Source: Actinomycetes bacterium (GTDB taxonomy: Bacteria > Actinomycetota > Acidimicrobiia > Acidimicrobiales > RAAP-2). Taken from it: DNA of 40,540 bases. Where the stretch lies: the NCBI GenBank assembly GCA_021794655.1, contig JAJYQJ010000095.1, forward strand, positions 1 through 40,540. Reading direction: 5' to 3'. Below the pieces are notes generated by a model that worked only from the letters and a program-made list of their open reading frames with translations, did no database searches and was not told the DNA's origin. The translations under genes and the position numbers were made by a program. Shown one piece after another: positions 30,387-37,839 of the stretch. Each line of letters opens with the position of its first letter. Position 1 is the first letter of the stretch.

Positions 30387-30444
30387 GTATCATTGCAGAG
30401 ATGGACGGCGCTGCGAATTGCGAGCAGAGGGGAGGTGTCGTCAG

Positions 30445-33400
30445 ATGAACACGGAAGTGACCGGCGATACAGGAGGCTACGACGCTCAAGGAGTGACACG
30501 CCAGGACGTGTCGGGAGCTGTGACCGGGGTGGTCGTCAGGTACGTTCGCGCTCGGACGGGAGAGTTTGGAGTAGGCCAGATGCTGGCTGCAGCAGGTGAC
30601 TCACGCCCTGCTCAAGTCCTCGAAGATCCAAGGAGTTGGAGCAGTCACGACGAAGCTCTCAAGCTGATTATCGCTGCCGGCGAGATCACAGGCGACCCCG
30701 AAATTGGCAGGCACATCGGAGAGGAGATCCTGCGTCAGTACGACGGAACCGATGTCGCGAACTTGCTTCGATCGCTCGGCTCACCGGCTGAGTTGCTGCG
30801 CAACGTAACGGCGGCTGCCGCCAAGTTCTCGACCGTCTCCTCGTTGGAGCCTCTTGAAGTTGGCGACGCTCACGCGGTTGTAAGGGCGATCACACGCCCA
30901 GGATTCATTCGACACCTCCAACTCTGCGAATTCACAAAGGGTCTGCTTTCCCAGGTCCCGGTTCTCTTTGGGATGGTCCCCGCAACTGTGACCGAGTCAG
31001 AGTGCCAGGCGCGAGGCGGTCGATTCTGCCTGTACAGCGTGGCGTGGGAAGCTGGGCAGTGGTCCTCGTTTGTCGACGAGAGAACCAGCTTGTACTCGTC
31101 GGCATGGGGGGGCCAAGTGAGCGAAGCTCGCTCGGAGCTCGAAATCGATCCAGAGACCCGTATCGAGATGCTCCAAAGACAGCTCGACGAGATGGGCGAG
31201 AGGCTCGAAGAGGTCTTCTTGACCGCACAGGCCCTGCTCTCGGTCGACGACCTGTCGGAGCTGCTATCGAGAATCACCGAGAGGGCGGCGCACGCGGTCA
31301 ACGCCCCTCGATACCTGCTCGTTGTGAGAACCGGACCAGAGCAGCCGGCCCATATCGAGCAGAGCGGGTTCACAGACACCGAAGCGAGAGCTCTTGCAAA
31401 CGAGCTACGCCAACCCAATCCTGACGACGCGGGTGGGTGCCGCCTCATCGTGGACATCGCGTCGTCGAGGCAACTCTACGGACGCTTAGCCGCCGTCTAC
31501 CCGCCTGGAATGCAGTTCATGGAGCGCGAGCGTGAGATATTCTCGCTATACGCGAACTACGCTGCAACCGCTCTCGACCTCGTCACATCTCTAGCCGATT
31601 CACGACGTTCGAACGAAACCGCGCGTGCGCTGCTTGGTTTCTCCCGCTCGCTCTCCAAGATTAGCACCACAGACGATGTAGCACAGACGCTTTCAGACAC
31701 AGTTCCACTTGTACTGGGTTGCCAACGATCAACGGTGATGCTCTGGGATCCGTTTGATATGAAACTTACGTTAAAGGCGGTATCTGGGGGGATGGAGATA
31801 CCGCCGTCGCCGGTGGAAGTAGCTAGTGAGAGCGGGGAGAAGATCGTGTTCATCCCCGAAGAAGAGATCGATCTGCCCGACGAAACGGTGTCAGAGTCGA
31901 CTGTCACGTCGATCTCGCCCAGTGATACGCCGATCGTCAACCAGTTGATGTCCTCTCGCGACATTCTCGTTGTAGACCGAACAACCCAAGATCCGTTCCA
32001 GCTCGCGGTTATGGAGCGCTCCGATACAAGCACGACCGTGTTCGCACCTTTCTTCTCCGACGAGGAGTTCTTGGGAGTCGTCAGCGCGGAGTTCAGCGAA
32101 TCTCCGACAGTTGATCCAAGATCCGATCGTGACCTCCAAGAACGCCTCGGCGCCCTGGCAGACCAGGCGGTCACTGCGTTCCAAAACGCCTGGCTGTTGG
32201 AGCAGGTCGGTCACCTGGCCTGGCACGACGCGCTGACAGGGCTACCCAACAGACGCCTCCTCGAAGACAGGGTCGCCCAAGAGCTGGAGCGGGCAAAGCG
32301 CGTTGGAGAACGGTCATCGGTGTTCTTCGTGGATCTAGATAGGTTCAAGAAGGTCAACGACACCCTTGGTCATGCAGCCGGAGATCAGCTACTCCAACTC
32401 GTCTCCCAACGCCTCCGTGATGCAGTCCGACGTCAAGATACCGTCGCGCGCCTCGGCGGTGACGAGTTCGCGATCTTGCTTCCAGGACTCGCAGACCCTG
32501 TGGACGTCCGCCTTCTGGCCGCCCAGATGATCGACGCGCTCCATGAGCCCTACGATCTCGACGGCGCTGAGGTGTTCACCTCTGCGAGCATCGGAATAAG
32601 TGTGTACCCACAGAACGGGGAGACATACGACGACCTGCTCAGCCACGCTGATGAAGCGATGTATCGTGCCAAGAGCGTCGGTCGCAACAACTACCAGGTC
32701 TACGACGAGAGCGTGCTCGACGATACCGGAGAAGAGATCCCCCTCGAAGCTGACCTGAGAAATGCAGTTGGCAGAAACGAGCTATTTGTGCTCTACCAGC
32801 CCTATATCGACCTTCACACCAACCAGATATCAGGAGTCGAGGCACTCGTGCGCTGGAGACATCCAACGAGAGGGATCATGGAACCGGGATCGTTCATTCC
32901 GACTGCGGAAGAGTCCTCTGCGATCGTGGCCGTTGACAGCTTCGTCATTAACGAGGCCGCGCACCAGATGCACAGATGGTCAGAGAACGGCCTCCCTCCT
33001 TTAAGGGTCTCAGTCAACATCTCGCGAAGAGATCTCCTCGATCCAGGGTTCTTCCAGACGGTCTCGTTCGCGCTCAGCTCTAACGCGGTGCCACCAGAGC
33101 TACTGGAGCTCGACGTCTCGGGAAAGCTCGGGGACGACGCTCAAGACGACACGGTCTTGTTCAACATAGCCGCGCTCAGGGAGTTTGGAGTTAGGGTAAC
33201 GGTTGGCGAGCACGAGTCCTTCAACGACGCGTCCGAGCAACTCGGCACATTCCCGGTCAACACTCTAAAGATCGATCGTTCCTTTGTTCAGCTCTTGGGA
33301 CCAACTGATGAACTTCACACGCTCTCACGTGCAATTGTCGACCTCGCCGAGAAACTCGGGCTCGAATGTGCAGGCGAGTACGGCGACACGCCACACCAGA

Positions 33401-33519
33401 GTCGTGTTCTGCTCCAAAGAGGTGACACGACTGCTCAGGGTTTCTTCTTCAGCCCGCCTCTCCTGCCAGGCGATGTCGAAAAGATGCTCGGTTCCGACGG
33501 CGCCGGATCGATCTCATAA
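30445..33519 (+). CDS. V4R-like/GAF/GGDEF/degenerate-EAL signalling protein
   Basis: The ATG at 30445 has GGGGAGGTG upstream and gives 1024 residues; no transmembrane helix is apparent. Residues ~40-220 resemble a V4R-type small-molecule-binding domain, ending in ESECQARGGRFCLYSVAW with cysteines. A helix (EMLQRQLDEMGERLEEVFLT) follows, then two GAF-like domains (about 245-390 and 400-570). A diguanylate cyclase domain opens at WHDALTGLPNRRLLEDRV and has an intact active site, RLGGDEF (GGDEF 671-675), so it should make cyclic di-GMP. The EAL domain (about 770-1015) keeps VEALVRW (E799) and VSVNIS, but the metal-binding DDFGTG is replaced by VGEHES and the late AEGVE motif is altered. It is therefore probably catalytically dead and may bind cyclic di-GMP or GTP. 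Signal input unknown. Confidence 0.88.
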   Translation: MNTEVTGDTGGYDAQGVTRQDVSGAVTGVVVRYVRARTGEFGVGQMLAAAGDSRPAQVLEDPRSWSSHDEALKLIIAAGEITGDPEIGRHIGEEILRQYDGTDVANLLRSLGSPAELLRNVTAAAAKFSTVSSLEPLEVGDAHAVVRAITRPGFIRHLQLCEFTKGLLSQVPVLFGMVPATVTESECQARGGRFCLYSVAWEAGQWSSFVDERTSLYSSAWGGQVSEARSELEIDPETRIEMLQRQLDEMGERLEEVFLTAQALLSVDDLSELLSRITERAAHAVNAPRYLLVVRTGPEQPAHIEQSGFTDTEARALANELRQPNPDDAGGCRLIVDIASSRQLYGRLAAVYPPGMQFMEREREIFSLYANYAATALDLVTSLADSRRSNETARALLGFSRSLSKISTTDDVAQTLSDTVPLVLGCQRSTVMLWDPFDMKLTLKAVSGGMEIPPSPVEVASESGEKIVFIPEEEIDLPDETVSESTVTSISPSDTPIVNQLMSSRDILVVDRTTQDPFQLAVMERSDTSTTVFAPFFSDEEFLGVVSAEFSESPTVDPRSDRDLQERLGALADQAVTAFQNAWLLEQVGHLAWHDALTGLPNRRLLEDRVAQELERAKRVGERSSVFFVDLDRFKKVNDTLGHAAGDQLLQLVSQRLRDAVRRQDTVARLGGDEFAILLPGLADPVDVRLLAAQMIDALHEPYDLDGAEVFTSASIGISVYPQNGETYDDLLSHADEAMYRAKSVGRNNYQVYDESVLDDTGEEIPLEADLRNAVGRNELFVLYQPYIDLHTNQISGVEALVRWRHPTRGIMEPGSFIPTAEESSAIVAVDSFVINEAAHQMHRWSENGLPPLRVSVNISRRDLLDPGFFQTVSFALSSNAVPPELLELDVSGKLGDDAQDDTVLFNIAALREFGVRVTVGEHESFNDASEQLGTFPVNTLKIDRSFVQLLGPTDELHTLSRAIVDLAEKLGLECAGEYGDTPHQSRVLLQRGDTTAQGFFFSPPLLPGDVEKMLGSDGAGSIS

Positions 33520-33664: not shown

Positions 33665-33817
33665 ATGGCGTCATATGAGGGATACTGCGTGAAGTGCAGG
33701 GAGAAGCGTACCTTCGACGGCAAAGAGGTGGAGCTCGCCAACGGTAGGAGGGCAGCCCAAGGAGCATGCCCGAGTTGCGGCACGAAGATGAACAGGATCC
33801 TCGGCAAGAAGTCCTGA
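33665..33817 (+). CDS. Small DUF5679 zinc-ribbon protein (50 residues)
   Basis: An ATG at 33665, with AGGAG about 7 bases upstream, opens a 50-residue frame. It has two CxxC pairs, YCVKCREKR and ACPSCGTKMNRILGKK, separated by a short FDGKEVELANGRRAAQG hairpin. This is the actinobacterial DUF5679 pattern, a tiny treble-clef or zinc-ribbon fold of unknown function, often found near DNA topology or repair genes. Highly basic and hydrophilic, it probably binds nucleic acid or a protein partner. It stands alone between two terminators. Confidence 0.88.
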   Translation: MASYEGYCVKCREKRTFDGKEVELANGRRAAQGACPSCGTKMNRILGKKS

Positions 33818-33860: not shown

Positions 33861-34130
33861 TTAGGCCAGCTTCATGAACATCTGCTGAACGACCTCCAGA
33901 GGGTACCCGTCAGCTTCAGCTTCTTCTGGGTGTTCCAGGCAGTGGGTTAGCCCGGCCGCGATCAACCGGAATCCCGCTTGATCCAACGCCTTGCTCGCGG
34001 CACATATCTGCACGACTACATCCCTGCACTCGCGCCCCTCGGCGAGCATCCTCTCTACTCCTTGCACCTGGCCGGCGACTCGCCGGAGGCGTTTCCTCAC
34101 CTCGTCTACTACCTCGTCGGGCAGATCCAC
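33861..34130 (-). CDS. CsoR-family repressor, CstR-like (persulfide-sensing candidate)
   Basis: I choose the GTG at 34130, which has AGGAG seven bases upstream and yields the family's normal size (89 residues); a TTG at 34211 would add 27 residues. The DUF156 four-helix fold is clear: RKRLRRVAGQVQGVERML, ECRDVVVQICAASKALDQ and GLTHCLEH. Aligned to Mycobacterium CsoR (Cu ligands Cys36-His61-Cys65), both cysteines are kept (C35 and C64) but the histidine position is Gly (G60). Loss of the His with both Cys kept is the pattern of CstR, which forms a trisulfide bridge with persulfides. The divergent rhodanese gene and the palindrome between them support a sulfide/persulfide response. A copper or other metal sensor is less likely but not excluded. 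Confidence 0.82.
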   Translation of the reverse strand: MDLPDEVVDEVRKRLRRVAGQVQGVERMLAEGRECRDVVVQICAASKALDQAGFRLIAAGLTHCLEHPEEAEADGYPLEVVQQMFMKLA

Positions 34131-34290
34131 TGCAGCACTCCTAACTCGCTCGCCTAACAACGTCTCGAATGACAGTTCTCCTGGCTTCTTGAGTCCTTCC
34201 CGTCCAGACAACCCGGACTCAACCCCGAGTAGTGATTCGATAACTCAGTTCTAAAGAGAGTTTCCGCCTCCAATTCCCTCCTGTATCGAC

Positions 34291-34314
34291 TAGTATACCC
34301 CAATGGGTATACTA
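34291..34314. promoter_or_regulatory. 24-bp perfect palindrome, probable CstR-type operator over divergent promoters
   Basis: TAGTATACCC (34291-34300) and GGGTATACTA (34305-34314) are exact inverted repeats around CAAT. The AT-flanked CCC/GGG core is the type of site bound by CsoR/CstR proteins. Each arm end carries a TATACT hexamer reading outward (34308-34313 on plus, 34297-34292 on minus), so one repressor site would cover the -10 of both the rhodanese promoter and the repressor's own promoter. -35 matches are weak. The rhodanese start is 71 bp to the right; the repressor start is 160 bp to the left. Confidence 0.75.
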
Positions 34315-34385
34315 CTTTTTCGTCCAGCAAGAGATCGGCATAACTCAGACCGATCAAAATCGCTTTGATCCGAGGAGACTTAAGT

Positions 34386-34766
34386 ATGGGGTTGTTTACG
34401 AGGAGCCGGAGAGACCCGACACAAGACGGCAGACGATCTATATCCGTTCCAGCCCACAAAGCCCACGAACTGCTCGCCGACGGTGCGGTGATACTCGACG
34501 TACGTGAACACCACGAGTGGCGTGCCGGCCATGCCCCAGGGGCGAAGCACCTACCTTTGGGCGAGGTCGGCGACTCTATTGAACAGATCCCTTGTGACTG
34601 CACGGTGATAGTCGTATGTCGATCCGGCCATCGCTCAGCCCAGGGTGTAAATGTCTTGAGAAAAGCCGGAATCGACGCTGTGAACCTCCACGGCGGAATG
34701 CACGCGTGGTCTTCCGCCGGGCTACCCGTCCAAACGGCTGACGGCAGAGAAGGCGTGATCGTTTAG
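34386..34766 (+). CDS. Rhodanese-like sulfurtransferase
   Basis: The protein has 126 residues from the ATG at 34386 with GAGGAG upstream. A single rhodanese domain starts at ISVPAHKAHELLADGAVILD, with the DVREHHEWRAGHAPGAKHLP core and the active-site loop VVCRSGHRSA, where C78 would carry the persulfide. Two extra cysteines lie just before it (C70 and C72 in IPCDC). Rhodaneses move sulfane sulfur from thiosulfate or persulfides to acceptors. The divergent CstR-like repressor and shared palindrome suggest it is induced by sulfide or persulfide stress. The short N-terminus is basic and has no signal, so it is cytoplasmic. Confidence 0.9.
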   Translation: MGLFTRSRRDPTQDGRRSISVPAHKAHELLADGAVILDVREHHEWRAGHAPGAKHLPLGEVGDSIEQIPCDCTVIVVCRSGHRSAQGVNVLRKAGIDAVNLHGGMHAWSSAGLPVQTADGREGVIV

Positions 34767-34817: not shown

Positions 34818-35162
34818 CTACTCGGCTGTCACCTTTTCATGAATCTCTCCGATCAGCTCGTGAAGCTTTTCTATCTCGCGTCGATGCTCTCGGTTCTTGC
34901 TGATCAAGTGGACTGTTCCACCCGCGGCGATACACGCACCCAAGTCACTTGTAACGTTCGTATAGTTTCCCCCGACCAACTCGGAGAACGCGGAGACGTG
35001 GATACCTGCAAGAGGGAGGACAACAAGGTATATACCCAACGCTCCGAGAAAGACGATGTGCGGCTTCGAAGACAGGGCCCGGGGCACGTATCCGAGTACC
35101 TTCGCAATCTTGGTTGGGGTAGGTAGATCTTGACCGTCTACCATCTGGCTCACGGTTGACAT
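34818..35162 (-). CDS. Small membrane protein, unknown function
   Basis: The 114-residue protein has a strong ribosome-binding site (AGAGGAG, 9 bases before ATG 35162). A polar N-terminus leads to one clear transmembrane helix (HIVFLGALGIYLVVLPLAGI, about 35-54), a second weakly hydrophobic stretch (DLGACIAAGGTVHLI) and a charged helix at the end (SKNREHRREIEKLHELIGEI). The layout faintly recalls the low-affinity iron permease/DUF small proteins with a C-terminal amphipathic helix, but key motifs do not match, so I give no function. It converges on the rhodanese gene, 51 bp apart. Confidence 0.6.
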   Translation of the reverse strand: MSTVSQMVDGQDLPTPTKIAKVLGYVPRALSSKPHIVFLGALGIYLVVLPLAGIHVSAFSELVGGNYTNVTSDLGACIAAGGTVHLISKNREHRREIEKLHELIGEIHEKVTAE

Positions 35163-35400: not shown

Positions 35401-35500
35401 CAACCGTTCCCGGTGAGTGTGCAGTAGTTGCACGCTCCTTCGGCGACCCGTGAACTTCGGGCCGTGCCGTTGTCTCGGACTGATGCACAGACATCAGGTC
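35400..35500 (-). ncRNA. Candidate omega RNA (reRNA) / right end of the IS607-type element
   Basis: Just past the tnpB stop, in tnpB orientation, two perfect hairpins stand in tandem: CCCG/CGGG with a 7-base loop (35447-35461) and GTGCA/TGCAC with a 5-base loop (35419-35433). TnpB guide RNAs come from the overlap of the tnpB 3' end and the transposon right end and end in such stem-loops; the guide would be the sequence beyond the right end, leftward. The exact end of the element and thus the guide is not determined. Confidence 0.45.
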
Positions 35501-37225
35501 ACCGCCTTCTTAGGGCTGGGTGAGGCTCCGTCGAGTACGCCGACAGAGCCGGTGGCAACAACAGCTTCCCGATCAAAGGGGCGGTCCCCGGCAGAACAGC
35601 TCCGGGCGGTCTTCCTCCCCCCTCCATCGGCCCTGGGGCTTCCGGCTCGGGCACACCCCCGCGAACTGCGGGTGTCTTGCTTCTTCGGGTCTTTGTTCTC
35701 CCAGCCGTAGGGACGTACTGGGAGCTTGGACCAGTCGACCGGTTCCCCAGTTAAGAGCTGGCACAGCACGGCCACACAGGCGAGCTCCGCCAACGATTGC
35801 AGGTTGTACGCGGCGTTCAGGTCGCGGTCGATCACAAGACCGCACTTTTTGCACTTGAACGCCCGGTTCGAGCGCTTCAGGTTGTGGTGCACGAACTTAC
35901 AACCAGAGCACATCTTCGACGACGGATACCAGCGGCTGGCGAGCAGGAGGATGCCAGCAAACCACGCGTGCTTGTAGGAGAGCTGCCGACGCAACTCAGC
36001 GAGGGCCGAGTCGGCCTGAGCCCGGTTGGACCCCCGCTTGCTTCGACCTCTCCGCATCATGCCGGACGCGTTCAGGTCTTCGACCACGTTCACGCTGTAG
36101 GTGCTGGCTAGACGGTGCGACTCCTTGTGGATCGGGTCCCTCCGCATGTTCGCAGCCTTCGCGTGAGCACGCTTGAGCTTGGCCTGGGTCTGCTTCGACC
36201 GCTTCGAGCGTACTTTCCAAAGGCAGCGACCGGCGACGTGTCCCGTCCGCGTTGAAGCACGCCGGGCTGTTTGTGCGGTGCTGGCGGTCCATCCGGCGCT
36301 GGTAGCGGCTGATGGTCTGGCGGAGTTGTTTCTCGGCCCGCGGGTTCTCGACCACATGGCCGTCTGAGGAGGTGGCTAGGTGTGCAATACCGACGTCAGT
36401 ACCAGAGACGCCACAGGTAGCAGGCATGGAGGGCTTCCGCTTCACAATCACGTTGAACGAGACGAAACGTTCCCCGCCCTCTTGAGACAGCGTGGCCCGG
36501 AGGATCTTTGCCGATTCGTCCTTTAGTTTCAGCCTGAGCTTGTCTGTCGGCTCCTTTGTGCGCCGTACTCCGATCACCGGCAACTGCACATGATGGCGGT
36601 CTACGATCCCTATTGCTCCGGTGGTAAATGATACGGAGGCTCGCCCGCGGTACCTGGCCTTGGGCTTCGGCCAACCAACGGGGGTACCATTGCGCGTGCC
36701 GCTCTTCGATGCGAAATAGTTCTTGAACGCCGTAGCTGCTGCCTCGAAACCCGACGAGTACGCCTCCTTCGAGTTCTCCTTCCACCAGCCAACCGTTGGA
36801 ATCACTCGGTCCGCGTAGTTTCTGGCCTCTGTCGCACGAGCACCCTGGCGAAGAGCGAGGGCTTCGAGGACTTCTCTTGCGTGGATGTTCTCTACCGCCG
36901 CTTCGCGCTCGGCATCGTCTCTTGCGGTGATGAGGTCCTTGGTATCGTTCCAGATGCGTCGCATCGCAGCCTGTGACCACGGCACCGGGACCATCGTCTG
37001 CGCCCAGGTGTTAGCGTCCTTGGCACTTGCTCCCTGACGAAGGGCAAGGACTCGGTAGGTGTTCCTCGCATGGAGCTGGTCTGTTACAAGCCTGCGTCCA
37101 AAGTTGAAGGCAAACCGGCGGGCACCGAGGTGAGATGCCTCGGCAGGGTCGGCCCGCTCCCCGTCGTCAAGGCAGAACTTGTACGCCTGTTGCCTCCAAC
37201 CATCGGGGATCTGGAATCTACTCAC
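35494..37225 (-). pseudogene. tnpB: TnpB (RNA-guided nuclease family), one frameshift
   Basis: Two overlapping minus-strand frames make up one protein. The first (start GTG 37225) runs through the wedge/REC-like part and RuvC I (SGTDVGIAHLATSSDG, D277). The second gives RuvC II (NVVEDLNASGM), the zinc finger (MCSGCKFVHH and KCKKCGLVIDR) and RuvC III (VIDRDLNAAYNL). Reading GGG as GG at 36242-36244 restores FNADG-HVAGRCLWKVRS, so one extra G is enough to explain the break. All three catalytic acids and four zinc cysteines are kept. The N-terminal part carries a tandem duplication of a ~45-residue module (LALRQGASAKDANTWA and LALRQGARATEARNYA). The frameshift may be real decay, a programmed shift or a sequencing error. 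Confidence 0.88.
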
Positions 37226-37839
37226 GGTATGATCTTCTCACTAGGTTGTATCAGCGCCATCGGCCCCACGTCGTGTTTGGCGCAGTTGAGTGCTTTCTCG
37301 GCGCGGTTCTTCGCACCGCGCCTGCCATAGAGTCGAGCACAGAACGATGTCAGTACCTCGGTCATGTCCCGCACCAGGTCGTCATCGACCTCGCCCTCGT
37401 CTACAACCACCACCCTGCGTCCCTGTGCCGACAGTGCTGCTTCTAAGTGCTCGACTCCGAAGCGGGCCAGCCGGTCTCTGTGCTCGACAACAATGGTTCC
37501 GACACTGGCATCGGACAACAAGCGGGCAAGCTTGCGCCTTCGTCCGTTCATTCCCGATCCGACTTCGGTTGCCACCTCGTCCACTGACAGCCCCGTTGAA
37601 GTGGCCCACTCGGTAAGTCGAGCCACCTGACGGTCAAGGTCGCCTCGTTGGTCGTGACTTGATACCCGAGCGTAGACCACGGTACGGACGTGCTCCGCCC
37701 TCACGGTCCCGACATCAACCAGGATGAGCCGTCCCACGCGCTGTGCAGGGACGGGTAGGGTGCCGTCGCGCCACCAGCGATACGCCGTGTGCTTGCTCAC
37801 GCCCACCATAGAGGCCCAGTCAGACAAGTTCACACCCAT
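37222..37839 (-). CDS. tnpA: IS607 family serine recombinase (transposase TnpA)
   Basis: The 205-residue protein has a MerR-like N-terminal helix-turn-helix (LSDWASMVGVSKHTAYRWWR) that binds the transposon ends, and a small serine-resolvase catalytic domain: VVYARVSSHDQ with nucleophile Ser60, ATEVGSGMNGRRRKLARLL, and VEHRDRLARFGVEHLEAAL carrying catalytic arginines. The C-terminal ~50 residues (SFCARLYGRRGAKNRAEKAL) are standard for IS607. Its TGA shares bases with the GTG of tnpB. It appears complete and active-site-intact. Confidence 0.93.
   Translation of the reverse strand: MGVNLSDWASMVGVSKHTAYRWWRDGTLPVPAQRVGRLILVDVGTVRAEHVRTVVYARVSSHDQRGDLDRQVARLTEWATSTGLSVDEVATEVGSGMNGRRRKLARLLSDASVGTIVVEHRDRLARFGVEHLEAALSAQGRRVVVVDEGEVDDDLVRDMTEVLTSFCARLYGRRGAKNRAEKALNCAKHDVGPMALIQPSEKIIP

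Follow-up and report, generated by a model that had tools for sequence, protein, structure and literature searches.

A predicted persulfide-responsive repressor–rhodanese divergon in an acidimicrobial genome, and a one-base-pair difference in the spacing of CsoR-family operators

The window analysed here—the whole stretch of 40,540 nucleotides from an Acidimicrobiales assembly—carries a CsoR-family repressor gene and a rhodanese gene that are read away from each other, with a perfect palindrome between them. We consider it very likely that this unit is a persulfide-responsive divergon, for which we infer DNA binding, persulfide sensing, both promoters and control of an unlinked sulfide:quinone reductase (SQR) gene. 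The unit is ordinary in kind and well supported by precedent; its noteworthy part is the single base pair of spacing by which sulfur-type and copper-type operators differ. We hold at about even chances the wider proposal that persulfide-type and copper-type repressors use identical half-sites, ATACC/GGTAT, and are insulated in one cell by 1 bp of spacing (6 versus 7), read by the tetramer face together with the alpha-3 tail.

Layout of the repressor–rhodanese unit

The repressor gene runs leftward and the rhodanese gene rightward from a shared intergenic region, as the first-pass annotation had described. The features of the unit are as follows.

33861..34130, minus strand: CsoR-family repressor assigned to the persulfide (Cys-x-Cys) type, 89 aa; GTG start at 34130; Cys35, Gly60, Cys64 and an additional Cys43
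34286..34313, plus strand: promoter-like pair TCGACT-16-TATACT for the rhodanese; 9 of 12 consensus matches, shuffle mean 0.3
34291..34314, no strand: perfect 24-bp palindrome, predicted operator common to both genes
34292..34297, minus strand: outward TATACT in the left arm, possible -10 of a repressor promoter, from sequence
34295..34310: operator core of 16 bp, ATACC-n6-GGTAT (ATACCCCAATGGGTAT); consensus as given for ScCsoR in excerpts of PMC7533328
34386..34766, plus strand: single-domain rhodanese, 126 aa; ATG start at 34386; catalytic Cys78 in CRSGHR; extra Cys70 and Cys72

The repressor belongs to PF02583 (CsoR/RcnR family, DUF156), with 72.8 bits against a cut-off of 22.8. A longer open reading frame starting at TTG was rejected as the likely gene, given the AGGAG that lies 7 nt before GTG34130 and the fact that relatives begin there. 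Numbered from this GTG, the protein keeps both sensor cysteines (Cys35 and Cys64) and has Gly60 in place of the copper-ligand histidine; in an alignment to solved structures, the counterpart of Gly60 is His in Geobacillus CsoR and Asn in pneumococcal CstR, which bears out the missing histidine claimed at first pass. A third cysteine, Cys43, sits in alpha-2 in the place that Ser or Ala usually takes in relatives, and could change the thiol chemistry of the repressor. The AlphaFold2 model, built from an alignment of 20 sequences, is all-helical with a mean pLDDT of 92.2; among its Foldseek matches the first 22 are CsoR, InrS, CstR or FrmR structures without exception, with E below 0.001 for the first only.

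The rhodanese matches PF00581 (64.3 bits, cut-off 22.2), is preceded by AGGAG at 8 nt before ATG34386, and has a CRSGHR stretch that fits the CRxGxR active-site loop. Its two extra cysteines, which the first-pass annotation had pointed out beside the active Cys, are present; among the other rhodaneses, those whose active-site motif was readable all lack them, so a conserved role for Cys70 and Cys72 was rejected, and on this comparison of sequences they look private to this protein.

The palindrome, written TAGTATACCC-CAAT-GGGTATACTA, has 10-bp arms that are 100% complementary around a 4-nt centre; its distance to the repressor start is 160 nt, and to the rhodanese start 71 nt. It is unique in the window at up to 3 mismatches, and none of 100 shuffles held a match. 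Its core, ATACC-CCAATG-GGTAT, is an exact match to ATACCn6GGTAT. Each arm contains an outward TATACT hexamer, as previously noted, and that of the right arm forms the -10 hexamer of the rhodanese promoter-like pair. The promoter scan supports the plus strand: it returned this single pair, and the minus-strand TATACT went unreported and has no good -35.

Several other genes lie around the unit. Just past the repressor gene end, 33665-33817 (+) encodes a 50-aa protein with two CxxC pairs (DUF5679, PF18930), and 30418-33519 (+) encodes a GAF/GGDEF/EAL cyclic-di-GMP protein of 1033 aa. Tail to tail with the rhodanese gene, 34818-35162 (-) encodes a protein of 114 aa that matches nothing in Pfam or NCBIfam. 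An IS607-like element occupies 35494-37839 (-), with a serine resolvase ORF (37222-37839, PF00239) adjoining TnpB/OrfB; the latter reading is divided between overlapping ORFs at 35996-37225 and 35494-36357 (the second with a Cas12f1-like TNB domain), and is thus probably frameshifted.

Relatives and the rest of the genome

A search of 148 related genomes with the repressor gave matches in 108, and a scan of GTDB contigs gave 38 named loci, mostly in Acidimicrobiaceae, Acidimicrobiales or Actinomycetes MAGs, many of them labelled bog or palsa. In a tree of 254 proteins—resting on only 98 alignment columns, with many forks unresolved and with S. aureus CstR and ScCsoR themselves not included—the window repressor falls in a 111-row non-His clade (SH-aLRT 99), apart from the Cys-His-Cys proteins. 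The clustering with copper or nickel sensors that had been raised at first pass as a counter-sign is not what the tree gives.

Gene neighbours were counted by phmmer on six-frame ORFs within about 3 kb of 245 cysteine-bearing family members; the counts are lower bounds, because many of the phylum loci are only 2.2 kb long. Of the 132 Cys-x-Cys relatives, at least 67 have a sulfur gene close by and at least 1 has a P-type ATPase gene; of the 113 Cys-His-Cys relatives, the counts are at least 1 and 64. Plasmids of S. clavuligerus, Arthrobacter sp. D5-1 and A. crystallopoietes carry csoR divergent from a rhodanese gene, together with TauE and/or MBL genes. Sites with the six-base spacer (up to one mismatch, 250 nt upstream, in the fetched loci) precede 20 of 24 Trx genes, 9 of 22 MBL (dioxygenase-like) genes, 4 of 9 CoA-disulfide-reductase/rhodanese genes and, by two queries, 7 of 14 and 4 of 8 rhodanese genes. 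Seven-base sites, also at up to one mismatch, were found before 1 of 14 rhodanese and 1 of 24 Trx genes.

The first-pass annotation had called the unit minimal, and locally this stands: neither an SQR gene nor a dioxygenase gene adjoins the repressor and rhodanese genes in the window. Elsewhere in the genome (2.71 Mb in 155 contigs), however, there is an unlinked SQR gene with a near-match operator. The exact ATACCn6GGTAT sequence occurs twice genome-wide, at this palindrome and inside a long ORF on contig C46; ATACCCn4GGGTAT at up to one mismatch gives five sites, against zero for the reversed control. Three of the five lie inside long ORFs, one is this palindrome, and one, CTACCCCAGGGGGTAT on contig C128, carries one mismatch and stands 21 nt upstream of the ATG of a gene whose 417-aa product scores 551.9 bits with the NCBIfam model of type III sulfide:quinone reductase, above its cut-off of 525. 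A dsrE2-like gene follows. To judge from this site, the window repressor probably also controls the type III SQR gene. The genome scan proposed at first pass for the full regulon added one site, and a large genome-wide regulon was rejected, three of the five sites being within long ORFs. The 20-bp form of the palindrome is exact only at this locus; with 3 mismatches it is matched at two other places, as many as in the control. A persulfide dioxygenase was not found by one dioxygenase-rhodanese query, which matched rhodanese domains only, in an assembly that is about 95% complete.

The genome has one further PF02583 gene, on contig C19. Its product is of the Cys-His-Cys kind, scores 138.7 for RicR (also under that cut-off of 175), and is encoded next to an ArsP/YHS-domain permease and, by ORF reading, ArsR- and ArsC-like ORFs. 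Upstream of it, on the plus strand at C19:3361-3377, lies ATACC-CCTGTAG-GGTAT: the half-sites are identical to those of the window and the central bases are seven. Contig C97 of the same genome holds a second sulfur module. It begins with a protein that joins an ArsR-type HTH to a rhodanese domain, and a DsrE protein and an SQR-like flavoprotein come next; no six- or seven-base site was found there at up to 2 mismatches.

The proposed switch, its precedents and its alternatives

In the circuit that we propose, a reduced repressor tetramer would occupy the single palindrome and keep both genes low; the palindrome overlaps the predicted rhodanese promoter at its -10 region and, probably, the repressor promoter likewise. 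As persulfide or polysulfide builds up, Cys35 would be persulfidated or cross-linked, Cys64 being needed; the modified repressor would leave the DNA, and both the repressor and rhodanese genes would come on. The rhodanese would then pass sulfane sulfur onward and, once the sulfur is gone, newly made reduced repressor would close the loop.

Related systems are described in excerpts of four papers. Streptomyces coelicolor ScCsoR (sco0620) represses its own gene, the neighbouring rhodanese gene Scrhod (sco0621), and a persulfide dioxygenase and TauE pair; an ATACCn6GGTAT sequence lies between SccsoR and Scrhod, and EMSA shows that this region is bound (PMC7533328). Polysulfide modifies Cys37 of ScCsoR by persulfidation, and release requires both cysteines (PMC7533328). 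The window unit shares the two-cysteine CsoR-like repressor, the rhodanese neighbour, the intergenic site and a predicted autoregulation; unlike the S. coelicolor locus with ScPDO and TauE, it has no adjoining dioxygenase or TauE gene, and instead of additional sites at a PDO promoter there is one palindrome in the window and an unlinked SQR gene with its near-match site. Given this precedent and the exact operator match, the unit is another case of a known switch.

Staphylococcus CstR, to which the locus had first been likened, fits as to the kind of switch, but the nearest characterised precedent is ScCsoR (PMC7533328, excerpts). S. aureus CstR is likewise a copper CsoR paralogue and a dithiol persulfide sensor that represses sulfurtransferase and SQR genes (PMC5480029, excerpts); the cst genes form one operon, whereas the window rhodanese and the SQR are unlinked, and the Bacillota CstR-like proteins compared carry Asn at the His position where the window repressor has Gly. 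In Bacillus licheniformis, the CstR-like YrkD represses a cluster with rhodanese-like, DsrE, TusA, sqr and pdo genes and loses DNA binding on elemental sulfur treatment; in contrast to the window unit, that cluster has 11 genes and additional NreBC control (PMC9918477, excerpts). Streptomyces lividans copper CsoR has the same fold and TAC/GTA half-sites with G-tracts, as in the window, but is a Cu(I) sensor with the His present, and its operator TAC-X9-GTA, that is ATACCn7GGTAT, is 1 bp longer (PMC3902906, excerpts).

Some observations count against reading the unit as a persulfide-responsive divergon. The identity of the repressor to solved CstR and CsoR chains is low (25-40% among the first 20 Foldseek matches), the 160-nt distance from palindrome to repressor exceeds that of most relatives without an intervening gene, the minus-strand promoter is weak, the SQR site carries one mismatch, and the full S. 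coelicolor circuit was not seen with the one dioxygenase query.

The main signal might be thiol-reactive in another way—disulfide stress, sulfite, nitroxyl or electrophiles—and not persulfide. Nitroxyl cross-linking of CstR has been reported (excerpts of PMC5480029), dithiol CsoR-family proteins can react with other thiol oxidants, and the unusual Cys43 gives the window repressor a third cysteine; the target genes of the relatives, however, encode sulfane-sulfur enzymes, and we regard this explanation as unlikely.

A copper- (or nickel-) sensing CsoR/RcnR repressor with a rhodanese gene beside it by chance appears highly improbable. It shares the Pfam family, and database matches lean its way: the best NCBIfam match of the repressor is the copper repressor RicR, at 47.9 bits and far under the cut-off of 175, and the best Foldseek match of its model is the copper CsoR 4m1p. 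The Cys-His-Cys Cu(I) ligand set of copper CsoR and RicR is incomplete in the window repressor, which has Gly in place of the His that defines the 113 Cys-His-Cys members; since this removes a Cu(I) ligand, copper is not expected to be the signal. The non-His position in the tree, the sulfur genes beside relatives, and the separate Cys-His-Cys paralogue in this genome with its own seven-base operator also speak against copper. The copper-sensor reading was rejected on the missed RicR cut-off, the Gly and the non-His clade.

Two other readings of the palindrome, as an intrinsic terminator or as an inverted repeat arisen by chance, we rate as highly improbable and reject: a scanner calls it terminator-like on the plus strand owing to the CTTTTT tail after it, yet it lies between divergent genes where no transcript is known to end, it is of a known operator class whose core recurs upstream of many homologues in differing contexts, and the 100 shuffles held no such match. 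The persulfide reading proposed at first pass is the one that we retain, backed by the non-His clade, the sulfur neighbours (67/132) and the ScCsoR precedent (PMC7533328, excerpts); binding and release would follow that precedent in the window repressor.

Operator spacing across the family

How CsoR paralogues that read the same half-sites in one cytoplasm avoid cross-regulation is a real question, and we compared operator spacing across 257 family members, of which 132 are Cys-x-Cys (non-His) and 113 Cys-His-Cys (copper-type). Pooled, with exact half-sites within 700 nt, spacer 6 was found for 61 of the 132 Cys-x-Cys genes and spacer 7 for none, whereas spacer 7 was found for 36 of the 113 Cys-His-Cys genes and spacer 6 for none; 71 non-His and 77 copper-type proteins have no exact site.

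The two underlying sets differ in how they were drawn. The first comprised the order-level genomes and eight plasmid loci (125 non-redundant genes, 700 nt upstream, spacers 3-10, exact half-sites), its Gly-type members being gathered by similarity to the window repressor and so no blind sample: sites preceded 45 of 85 Gly-type genes (all spacer 6), 9 of 28 His-type genes (all spacer 7) and 5 of 12 others (all spacer 6), and a downstream control gave 4 of 85 for the Gly-type (spacer 6) and none for the His-type. The second, blind at the level of the phylum, took 119 Actinomycetota genomes drawn by PF02583 together with five Bacillota plasmid loci (132 genes, 400 nt, spacers 2-12): 25 of 85 His-type genes had a site, all with spacer 7, and 11 of 38 Cys-x-Cys genes had one, all with spacer 6 (one also with 11); two of these eleven are Bacillota. 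A looser TACC/GGTA test over 300 nt, in which other spacers also occur a few times, gave spacer 6 for 73 and spacer 7 for 2 of the 132 non-His genes, and spacer 7 for 53 and spacer 6 for none of the 113 copper-type genes.

Ten further plasmid loci gave spacer 7 before copper-type genes of S. capitis, Streptomyces sp. FR1, Afipia and Ruminococcus, spacer 6 in Mesobacillus and Lactiplantibacillus, and no exact site within 600 nt in Acetoanaerobium, Rubrobacter, Deinococcus or at S. aureus CsoR. Five genomes, this one among them (G000, with G023, G206, G237 and G238), hold both exact forms, each before its own gene class. On Deinococcus gobiensis plasmid P2 (L287:1974-2237), a CsoR-family protein with Tyr at the His position is encoded beside MBL, rhodanese and TauE genes; it sits on a long branch among the copper-type proteins, its sole site is a seven-base one with one mismatch, and it is possibly a second origin of a sulfur-type repressor.

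Spacer and class are associated with a Fisher P of 2e-27, a value that is no evidence of repeated evolution because the rows are related and the tree needs one spacer change only. Read from the tree of these sequences, the spacer difference is one old split, a single evolutionary event.

Protein features vary along with the spacing. An alpha-3 end of R-x-x-R/K is found in 89 of 113 copper-type proteins against 12 of 131 others, and a short F-led alpha-3 tail in 107 of 131 non-His and none of 113 copper-type proteins. The R-L-x-R motif, considered as an alpha-3 tail and rejected as such, lies in alpha-1 and, like the alpha-2 Gln, is kept in both classes. Adding one base pair rotates one end of a site by about 34 degrees relative to the other. 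For S. lividans CsoR, excerpts of PMC3902906 tie the alpha-1 R-L-x-R and alpha-2 Gln to the TAC/GTA half-sites and tight binding, and place the alpha-3 arginines near the middle of the operator; that the alpha-3 tail reads the spacing is what we infer.

Each half of the spacer difference agrees with print. PMC7533328, in the excerpts available, gives spacer 6 for the sulfur repressor and calls its site highly similar to copper-repressor sites; PMC3902906, likewise in part, reports ATATACCCCTNAGGGGTATAT as the consensus for copper CsoR and TAC-X9-GTA as the pattern of several CsoR proteins, the latter amounting to spacer 7, with type 2 sites typically spaced by 11 bp. The comparison itself is what may be new: the literature covered held no text contrasting the two spacings, and the primary S. 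aureus CstR papers and the 2021 paper on persulfide and the CsoR family, outside that coverage, may already state it.

With this unit the persulfide-switch family extends to an uncultured, peat-type acidimicrobial lineage, in which the switch probably reaches an unlinked sulfide:quinone reductase. If the spacing proposal is true, putting one base pair in or taking one out should swap an operator between the sulfur and copper regulons, and a one-base-pair rule would allow a regulon to be predicted as sulfur or copper from sequence alone.
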